Notes under the pieces: generated by a model
Seen by the model: the letters and a program-made list of their open reading frames with translations, nothing else
Databases searched by the model: none
What the model was told of the DNA's origin: nothing
NCBI RefSeq assembly: GCF_947500125.1
Contig: NZ_CANMRA010000020.1
Location: forward strand, 1 to 64,000
Reading direction: 5' to 3'
DNA from: an uncultured Kocuria sp.
GTDB lineage: Bacteria; Actinomycetota; Actinomycetes; Actinomycetales; Micrococcaceae
DNA length: 64,000 nt
Shown here: positions 29,334-31,756 of the stretch, piece after piece
Layout of the letters: each line of letters begins with the position of its first letter
How positions within the stretch are numbered: position 1 is the stretch's first letter
Position numbers and translations under genes: made by a program

Positions 29334-29723
29334 TCAGGCGGCGGCTTCGCGCGGCGCGGAGGTGTCCTCCGGCAGTGCGTTCTTGGCGATCTCGACCAGA
29401 CCGGCGAACGCCTTCTCGTCGTTGACGGCCAGCTCGGCGAGCATCCGGCGGTCGACCTCCACCTCGGCGGCCTTGAGGCCCTGGATGAAGCGGTTGTAGG
29501 TCAGGCCGTTGGCGCGGGCCGCGGCGTTGATGCGCTGGATCCACAGCCGACGGAAGTCGCCCTTGCGCTTCCGGCGGTCGTTGTAGCTGTAGACGAACGA
29601 GTGGGTGACCTGCTCCTTCGCCTTGCGGTACAGGCGCGAGCGCTGGCCGCGGTAACCGGAGGCCTGCTCGAGGATGACCCGGCGCTTCTTGTGGGCGTTG
29701 ACCGCCCGCTTCACACGTGCCAC
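29334..29723 (-). CDS. rplT: 50S ribosomal protein L20
   Basis: Early-assembling 23S rRNA-binding protein. The 129-residue sequence has the typical basic N-terminus ([12 protein letters not shown]...[11 protein letters not shown]) and the conserved [20 protein letters not shown]. It is the third gene of infC-rpmI-rplT, 94 bp after rpmI; the gap holds a short GC hairpin (CCCGGCCG/CGGCCGGG). Confidence 0.98.
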
Positions 29724-30168: not shown

Positions 30169-31122
30169 TCAGGCCTGCGGCCCGGGCTTGGCGCCCGGCT
30201 TGGGTCCGGGCCGGGGTGCCTTCGGCGCCGGCGGCTTCGGAGCGGCCTTCGGTGCCGGGGTCTCGGCGGCCTTCGGTGCCGGGGCCTCAGCGACCTCAGG
30301 CTCCGGGGCCTCGACGACCTCGGGCTCCGGGGCCGGGGCCTCGGCGACCTCGACGACCTCGGGGGCGGCGGGCTGCGCCGTCTCCGGGGCCTCGGGGGCC
30401 GGCGCCGACTCCTGAACCTCGGGCTCCGGCTGCTGCACCGGCTCCTCGGCCTGTCCGGCCCGCTCGCGCAGCTCGGCCGGGAACGCGTCCCCGATCGACT
30501 GGGTCACGGGCTCCGCGGAGGACGTGTCGACCTTGTCCTTCGCCTTGCGCTCGTTCTCGGCCTTCGCCTCGTCGCGCTGCTTCTGGCGGCGCGCCTCGGC
30601 CTTGGCCTCGGCCTTGTTCTTCAGCGGGCCCACGACCATCACCATGTTGCGGCCGTCGACCCGGGGGCTCGACTCGACCGCGCCGACCTCCGCGACGTCG
30701 TTCGCGAAGCGCTCGAGCAGGCGAACGCCCATCTCGGGGCGCTGCTGCTCGCGGCCGCGGAACTGGATCATGGCCTTGACCTTGTCGCCGGCCCCGAGGA
30801 ACCGCTTGGCGTGGCCGACCTTGGTCTCGTAGTCGTGGGTGTCGATCTTGAGCCGGAACCGGACCTCCTTGAGGACCGTGTTCGTCTGGTTCTTGCGCGA
30901 CTCCCGGGCCTTGACCGCGGCTTCGTACTTGTACTTGCCGAAGTCCATGAGCTTGGCCACCGGCGGCTTGGCGTTGGGCGCCACCTCGACCAGATCGAGA
31001 TCCGATTCGCGGGCCAGCCTCAGTGCGTCCTCGACGCGGACGATGCCGACCTGCTCGCCTGCGGGTCCGACGAGACGGACTTCGGGGACTCGGATTCTGT
31101 CATTGATACGTGGATCGCTAAT
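30169..31122 (-). CDS. infC: translation initiation factor IF-3 with ATT start and long C-terminal tail
   Basis: IF-3 binds the 30S subunit and checks initiator tRNA and start codon. The family N-terminus [19 protein letters not shown] is encoded only if translation begins at ATT 31122, which has CAGGAG 6 nt upstream; standard start codons would cut off 46 conserved residues. An AUU start is the classic IF-3 autoregulation device. The N-domain (about 1-75, [20 protein letters not shown]) and C-domain (about 80-170, ending [12 protein letters not shown]) are complete. A tail of about 145 residues follows, first Lys/Ala/Glu charged, then Pro/Ala/Glu repeats ending [11 protein letters not shown]. 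Total 317 residues against about 180 in E. coli. Confidence 0.95.
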
Positions 31123-31170
31123 GCCGTGCTCCTGATGTTCTGCGTGATCACCCGGAGGTTTCCGGGGACC

Positions 31171-31233
31171 TCATGGTTCGGTCCGGTCCGCAACGACAAA
31201 AGCCCCCGCTGCGGTCGGCAAGCGGAGGCTCAT
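31171..31233 (-). CDS. possible 20-residue leader ORF in the infC leader
   Basis: ATG 31233 opens a 20-codon frame (MSLRLPTAAGAFVV...) that runs straight through the hairpin at 31201-31230 and ends with TGA at 31171-31173, before infC. The Shine-Dalgarno is weak. Ribosomes on this ORF would melt or block the hairpin, as leader peptides do. Expression is not shown; the frame also continues open upstream. Confidence 0.35.
   Translation of the reverse strand: MSLRLPTAAGAFVVADRTEP
31201..31230 (-). terminator. terminator-like attenuator in the infC leader
   Basis: On the minus strand AGCCTCCGCT (31230-31221) pairs with AGCGGGGGCT (31210-31201), 10 bp with one wobble, followed directly by TTTTGTCG counting the last stem base. 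This is the only hairpin in the window with a fair T-run. It lies about 80 nt before the infC ATT, inside a leader of about 280 nt, so it probably controls read-through into infC-rpmI-rplT. Confidence 0.7.
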
Positions 31234-31409
31234 CGGTGCGGCACCCGTGGGGTGACGCGCTGCGTGACGGAGCGGACGCGGGATGTCCCGGCCGTGCCGT
31301 CGTGCGGACGATGTCGTCGCGGACCCGGCGGCCGTGGGCAGGTCGTCCGAAGGCTCGGGGACCGTGGCCGGCGCGGGTGGGAGTCTCCTCCACTTGCACA
31401 CTGCCGACC

Positions 31410-31415
31410 AGTCTA
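31410..31415 (-). promoter_or_regulatory. infC operon promoter -10 element
   Basis: TAGACT on the minus strand, about 290 nt before the infC start; a start site near 31403 would give the long leader with the attenuator. The -35 region (TTCCCG at 18 bp) is weak. Confidence 0.45.
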
Positions 31416-31459
31416 GCCCATAGGCCGCGGGTTCGGGAAACAGCGGCCGCGCCGGCGCC

Positions 31460-31756
31460 TCACTCGTCCTCGGTGCTGTGCAGGGCCCGCCGGGCCGAGA
31501 GCAGCTCCGTCTCCGGCCGGGCGGCGACGAAGCGCTCGACCTCGTCGAGGACCTCGACGAGACGGGCGGCGTCCGCCGCGACCACGGCGGTGCCCACGAG
31601 GGCCCGGCGGTGGAGCTCGAGGTGGCCGACCTCGGCGGCGGTCACCGGGAAGCGGCGGCGCAGCTCCGCGACGAGGGGCCGCACCACGGAGCGCTTGCCC
31701 TTGAGGGAGTGGACGTCCCCCAGGAGAAGGTCGAACTCGATCCACCCGATCCACAC
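31460..31756 (-). CDS. DUF503 (YlxP-like) protein
   Basis: Small cytoplasmic protein of 98 residues with the DUF503 core: VWIGWIEFDLLL...HSLKGKRSVVRPLVAELRRRFPVTAAEVG and a final EVLDEVERFVAARPE helix. The family folds as a ferredoxin-like domain and often sits beside ribosome-maturation genes (infB, rbfA); the function is not settled. GTG 31756 has AAGGGGG upstream and gives the family N-terminus; the frame upstream of it is not conserved. It lies upstream of the infC operon on the same strand. Confidence 0.88.
   Translation of the reverse strand: MWIGWIEFDLLLGDVHSLKGKRSVVRPLVAELRRRFPVTAAEVGHLELHRRALVGTAVVAADAARLVEVLDEVERFVAARPETELLSARRALHSTEDE

Follow-up and report, generated by a model that had tools for sequence, protein, structure and literature searches.

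The infC locus and its leader

The window analysed here, a 64,000-nucleotide stretch of contig NZ_CANMRA010000020.1 from an uncultured Kocuria sp., contains the genes for IF3, L35 and L20, and all features described below lie on its minus strand. The placement in Kocuria agrees with its IF3, whose closest named relatives belong to that genus, and with the genus sample, some leaders of which are identical to loci of named Kocuria. infC (30169-31122) was recognized by PF05198 and PF00707 and by its translation, and starts with an AUU codon (31122-31120), so that a gene caller restricted to ATG, GTG and TTG truncates it at GTG 30984; among the relatives' starts listed, infC begins with AUU or AUC. 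Downstream lie rpmI for L35 (29818-30012; PF01632 and the list of open reading frames), which probably starts at ATG 30012, and rplT (29334-29723; PF00453), whose product L20 is our candidate ligand. Directly upstream of the infC leader and co-directional with it is a DUF503 gene (PF04456; 31460-31754), which ends at 31460 and from which transcriptional read-through into infC would be possible. The leader itself is about 280 nt long. A -10-like box, TAGACT (31410-31415), has a TANNNT counterpart at the same distance in six Kocuria leaders, the transcript would start at about 31404-31401, and a Shine-Dalgarno-like AGGAG (31129-31133) precedes the AUU codon.

Within the leader, sequence and equilibrium folding reveal a hairpin resembling an intrinsic terminator, with four T in a row (31198-31230). 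Its arms, AGCCUCCGCU and AGCGGGGGCU (31230-31201), form 10 pairs, one of them G-U, around a loop of 10, and TTTT lies on the 3' side at 31201-31198. The window's run of only four T, and in Arthrobacter-type leaders a tail broken by C, such as TCTCTATTTG, count against the attenuator proposed below. The -10 box, the leader of about 280 nt, the hairpin with its T-run and a 20-codon open reading frame had all been described in a first-pass annotation of this DNA, and all are present in the sequence where it had placed them. By itself the hairpin is at chance level, a terminator scan finding one terminator-like site per 4 kb vs 1.1 in shuffles. By our own hairpin score, a terminator-like hairpin lies 60-140 nt ahead of infC in 100 of the 122 leaders, the window's among them, that have the 5' motif described below, a few of these picks being plainly other hairpins (e.g. 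leaders L063 and L097); a text pattern detects the hairpin in every one of the 27 Kocuria leaders, again including the window. The full leader of the window has a fold slightly more stable than those of its shuffles (z -2.46); in it a long-range stem surrounds the terminator, and this stem forms only in transcripts extending past the terminator.

A conserved RNA domain in the 5' part of the leader

The conserved and covarying part of the leader is an RNA domain at 31317-31401, close to where the transcript begins; it lies roughly 90-170 nt before the hairpin. This domain went undescribed in the first-pass annotation, whose proposal of a switch at infC is very probably right and whose role for a short reading frame is not supported. 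It was recognized by two covariance models, R2, trained only on a set of 80 infC loci with organism titles and the window, and R3, built from 95 leaders; the window scores 56.9 bits with R2 (E 1e-13) and reaches E 4.9e-12 with R3, its leader being among the rows used to build both. Most relatives' leaders share the motif GCAAGYGGAG-N-CUCCCACCYG...CRGGU near the presumed transcript start. In the window, helix P1 (31380-31391), the putative anti-antiterminator, pairs GGAG (31391-31388) with CUCC (31383-31380), and helix P2 (31323-31378) consists of an outer segment, ACCCG (31378-31374) with CGGGU (31327-31323), and an inner segment, CGGCC (31370-31366) with GGCCG (31333-31329).

Compensatory change supports these helices. 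In a MAFFT alignment (A2) of the window with 36 relatives' leaders, 37 in all, 91.9% of cells are paired and 33 are double-change cells vs 7.0 in shuffles. In the set of 95 leaders fitted to the model, pairing extends to 94.8% of cells, and the count of double-change cells is 72 vs 18.0 (sd 6.6) in shuffles, 0 of 500 of which came as high; since this alignment was fitted to the model its pairing figures lean towards it, and the shuffle tests count related leaders as independent, ignoring kinship. In the same 95 leaders P1 is paired in 99.7% of cells, with both-side changes in two of its four pairs, and the outer and inner segments of P2 are paired in 99.6% and 85.4% of cells, with both-side changes in one of five and five of five pairs, respectively. 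None of the 95 model-matched leaders departs from the unpaired AAG or from the unpaired C that separates P1 from P2, a pattern as in a binding site.

Many of these leaders may also carry a closing helix. GGUC occurs within 16 nt after P2 in 61 of the 95 (8.3 in shuffles) and GACC within 75 nt before the motif in 59 (26.5 in shuffles); 47 have both (Fisher p 1.3e-4, a guide only, because related leaders are not independent). Judged by eye, GACC often lies about 14 nt past a TANNNT box and would then open the transcript. GGUC is absent from the six Kocuria leaders in this set, and the window's element therefore does not include the closing helix.

A predicted antiterminator pairing between the 5' domain and the terminator

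The 5' strand of P1 overlaps a second pairing element. The strand GCAAGUGGAGG (31387-31397), which includes the invariant AAG, is complementary to CCUCCGCUUGC (31218-31228), that is, to the 5' arm of the terminator and the start of its loop, and the predicted duplex between 31397-31387 and 31228-31218 has 11 of 11 pairs and -21.5 kcal/mol. We examined this complementarity in a sample of 129 leaders, from which seven unmatched by the text pattern (three of them Nesterenkonia) were set aside to leave 122; terminators were chosen by a score blind to the 5' strand, and the 100 leaders that passed yielded 83 distinct strand/arm pairs. A strand pairs with its own arm at -15.9 kcal/mol, against -14.16 (sd 0.22) when strands are exchanged between leaders, and 0 of 20,000 permutations, in which kinship was ignored, came as low. 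In 63 of the 83 the leader's own terminator arm is strictly the best partner of the 5' strand within that leader. The antiterminator pairing thus covaries between the 5' strand and the terminator arm, by comparison of sequences.

Folding of the window at growing lengths, an equilibrium calculation, gives P1, then the antiterminator, then the terminator. P1 has a probability of 0.72-0.97 up to nt 173 and is back at 0.97 with the terminator; the antiterminator has a probability of 1.0 at transcript lengths 185-197; and the terminator reaches 0.84-0.95 after its 3' arm is made. P2 has a probability of 0.85-0.89 from nt 182 to 212 and is lost at lengths of at least 230 nt, where its 3' strand is taken by another long-range stem. 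Among the 83 leaders, a probability of at least 0.5 is reached by P1 in 74, by the antiterminator in 78 and by the terminator in 72, and 57 pass all thresholds (P1, antiterminator, terminator and subsequent loss of the antiterminator) while 26 miss one; in a few, L005, L053, L070, L117 and L138, the antiterminator remains the most stable state. When folds of the window up to the T-run are forced, P1, P2 and the terminator together reach -96.8 kcal/mol, which equals the free optimum, and a fold with the antiterminator reaches -91.4 kcal/mol; the antiterminator would therefore have to exert its effect before synthesis of the terminator has finished. Sequence and equilibrium folding hence predict two mutually exclusive structures upstream of infC, one of them a terminator, as in an attenuator. 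Six leaders (L060, L066, L073, L075, L079 and L080), which from their names we take to be Microbacteriaceae, match or resemble P1 and P2, yet have no good terminator by our score; in such leaders the output may differ, possibly being translational or Rho-dependent.

Distribution of the element

At E <= 0.01, R2 matches 95 of the 100 sources searched, missing leaders L062, L068, L071, L077 and L079; these sources were drawn from 136 infC leaders (window included), the rest being mostly close Arthrobacter relatives and duplicates. At the same threshold it matches 9 of 13 further sources. Among 296 genomes drawn from the class, R2 matches 210 at E <= 1 and about 155 at E <= 0.001, and in a phylum-wide draw it matches 34 of 396 genomes at E <= 0.05. 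With strict filters and E <= 0.01, R3 matches 216 of the 296 genomes of the class, 39 of its rows coming from genomes in that same draw, and it matches 27 of 27 Kocuria. In all 49 strong class matches examined, the 29 best and 20 chosen from other families, infC is the first gene behind the motif. R3 left 80 class genomes unmatched. Among 20 of these that were inspected, infC could be found in 17 and leader sequence in 15, and with filters off 14 of these 15 leaders match in the right place at E <= 0.05, the last one weakly in the same place. Outside the class, the motif precedes infC in two (L140 and L142) of eight places fetched. We conclude from these comparisons that the element is widespread in the class as sampled, perhaps nearly general. 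Three Nesterenkonia leaders (L055, L056 and L059) have no trace of the motif in the 330 nt before infC, and they offer a natural test of the consequences of its loss. Weak second matches were also recorded; the seven fetched within the class and four in the window's genome (E 0.45-6.5) all lack infC, and two in Kocuria overlap long open reading frames; these were taken as chance.

Proposed mechanism and ligand

Sequence comparison shows that the domain exists and covaries, that its 5' strand is complementary to the terminator arm, and that it is linked to infC. That infC lies behind a regulated terminator, as the first-pass annotation proposed, is very probable, and the infC-rpmI-rplT operon is probably controlled by a transcription attenuator gated by the structured RNA near the 5' end of its transcript. 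Switching inside the cell, we infer, would proceed as follows. The nascent RNA would first fold into P1 and P2. As the 5' arm of the terminator emerges, GCAAGUGGAGG would leave P1 and pair with it, and RNA polymerase, with the antiterminator formed, would read into infC. If, however, P1 and P2 were held together by a ligand, the strand would be kept in P1, the terminator would fold and transcription would stop near 31198.

Whether this ligand is L20, which would give negative feedback, we consider about evenly balanced. L20 is preferred by analogy with B. subtilis, where the terminator ahead of infC is favoured when L20 binds, according to the passages available from PMC6097659 and PMC10931766. 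In 80 of 80 genomes the L20 gene follows the leader at a distance of 926-1715 nt, on one contig and strand with it, and no split between infC and the L20 gene was found among them; since the IF3 gene lies between the leader and the L20 gene, this position fits either protein as ligand.

The attenuator could be the same and its ligand IF3 or an IF3-30S complex, so that the IF3 operon would control itself both through transcription and through its AUU start. The invariable position of infC as first gene behind the motif is what such a ligand would predict, although it is equally expected if L20, encoded by the third gene, is bound; the AUU start in the window, with AUU or AUC in the relatives listed, and the resemblance of P1 (GGAG/CUCC) to a Shine-Dalgarno/anti-Shine-Dalgarno pair also speak for IF3. 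Against it, we know of no precedent for IF3-controlled termination, and we regard this reading as unlikely. A wider proposal, that the element is a class-wide actinobacterial RNA outside Rfam 15 in which one 5' strand serves as half of the sensing fold and as the antiterminator, with IF3 or free 30S subunits rather than L20 as ligand, seems to us unlikely; were IF3 or free 30S subunits the ligand, transcription of the IF3 gene would directly sense initiation capacity. With the element defined, the choice between L20 and IF3 becomes directly testable in non-pathogenic species.

Alternatives to a ligand-gated attenuator

The hairpin could also act as a constitutive, unregulated partial terminator that fixes a setpoint of expression, the 5' domain serving RNA stability or some other role. 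The terminator, once made, is indeed favoured without any ligand (probability of 0.5 or more) in 72 of the 83 leaders. However, covariation has kept both P1 and the antiterminator that competes with it, and the invariance of the unpaired AAG and C in 95 of 95 model-matched leaders resembles that of a binding site, leaving a fixed terminator a quite unlikely explanation.

A further reading assigns the decision to translation, either of the frame that starts at ATG 31233, the sensor proposed by the first-pass annotation, or of a leaderless frame from GTG 31401, with a ribosome covering the antiterminator strand. A 20-codon frame (31171-31233) does cross the hairpin, forming the tail, with its stop at 31171, of a 76-codon frame that starts at GTG 31401, and leader-peptide attenuators are known in Actinobacteria (PMC8079986, in the part available). 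The frame was found in only 3 of 27 Kocuria leaders (the window, L160 and L164), and an ATG abuts the hairpin in only 7 (window included). L161 and L163 have an altered T-run that shifts the frame, L166 and L172 have lost its stop, and two others, L162 and L184, have an unrelated ATG. No purine-rich ribosome site was seen by eye before ATG 31233. We therefore dropped this frame as the sensor, judging it incidental. As to the GTG start, GTG[T/C]GCAAG stands at the presumed transcript start of all 27 Kocuria leaders (31393-31401 in the window) and its frame ends after five codons, inside P1, in 12 of them. Yet it crosses the hairpin in only 9 of the 27, its end points otherwise varying, and Arthrobacter-type leaders carry TTTGCAAG, without that GTG. 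A conserved reading frame over the switch, as a ribosome-mediated attenuator would have, was thus not found in the 27 Kocuria leaders, and the conserved complementarity between 5' strand and terminator arm needs no translation. The element does not seem dependent on a small reading frame, there being a small chance of a five-codon leaderless mini-ORF special to Kocuria, and we hold control by translation to be improbable. That the hairpin and its complementarities are mere chance in GC-rich DNA, as the chance-level terminator scan alone would allow, is contradicted by the covariation, by class-wide conservation at one gene and by E-values down to 1e-14, and is very improbable.

Relation to known systems

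To place the element among known RNAs, we compared it with Rfam 15. In the window only an Actino-pnp RNA (RF01688; 61945-62025, 56.1 bits) scores over cut-off, far from the leader, and 30900-31600 has two chance-level matches below cut-off; in 20 relatives' loci no family scores over cut-off. The L20_leader family RF00558 has no match in the window and, with strict filters, none over cut-off in 197 class genomes, while the B. subtilis, T. maritima and L. lactis controls were detected; 4 of the 197 have weak matches below cut-off, and in the one with a known infC position (G044) the match lies elsewhere. By this family model, the view of the first-pass annotation that the leader is unlike that of Bacillus is borne out. 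The element is spread through one bacterial class, which holds many antibiotic makers as well as the mycobacteria, yet has no family in Rfam 15; it provides defined bases for mutation, and its alignment (A3) can be used for genome annotation.

No published account of an actinobacterial infC attenuator was found in a literature search made mostly without subscription papers, the negative covering the passages available from PMC3207917, PMC7247131, PMC2965389, PMC10931766, PMC13236596, PMC6097659, PMC4046766, PMC3890552 and PMC8079986; neither infC nor attenuat- occurs in PMC10937400. In M. tuberculosis, the infC 5' UTR of 326 nt has been described as long, abundant and suggestive of regulation, the infA and infC UTRs being similar, and its UTR/CDS signal of 2.6 in exponential and 4.9 in stationary phase (PMC3207917, in the passages available) is as premature transcript ends would give. 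From our family f10, which looks mycobacterial, this leader is probably the same element, whereas the model of P1, antiterminator and terminator is absent from those passages.

Among L20 leaders described elsewhere, the deltaproteobacterial r-leader candidate of Eckert and Weinberg 2020 has an AA dimer and two G-C pairs next to each other (PMC7247131, as far as available). The infC motif likewise has an invariant AA and adjacent G-C pairs, but these features are generic, and the candidate belongs to a different lineage and has a different scaffold. A comparison by eye of the motif with the 23S stretch from the same genome that we take to hold the L20 site likewise found AA and G-C pairs in common, again too generic to speak for or against mimicry of that site. 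The E. coli rpmI-rplT operator shares with the element feedback on the same ribosomal protein genes, but it is translational and leaves E. coli infC outside its control, according to the passages available from PMC10931766. The closest likeness is to the Firmicutes L20 leader of RF00558, with which the element shares the operon, a 5' binding domain (putative here), competing structures and a terminator before infC; the difference is that here a strand of the first helix of the 5' domain itself serves as the antiterminator, and that L20 is assigned as ligand by analogy. In its mode of action the element would thus parallel the Bacillus L20 leader without belonging to RF00558, and it would add, beside those of Bacillus and E. 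coli, a further solution to the control of the IF3, L35 and L20 genes.
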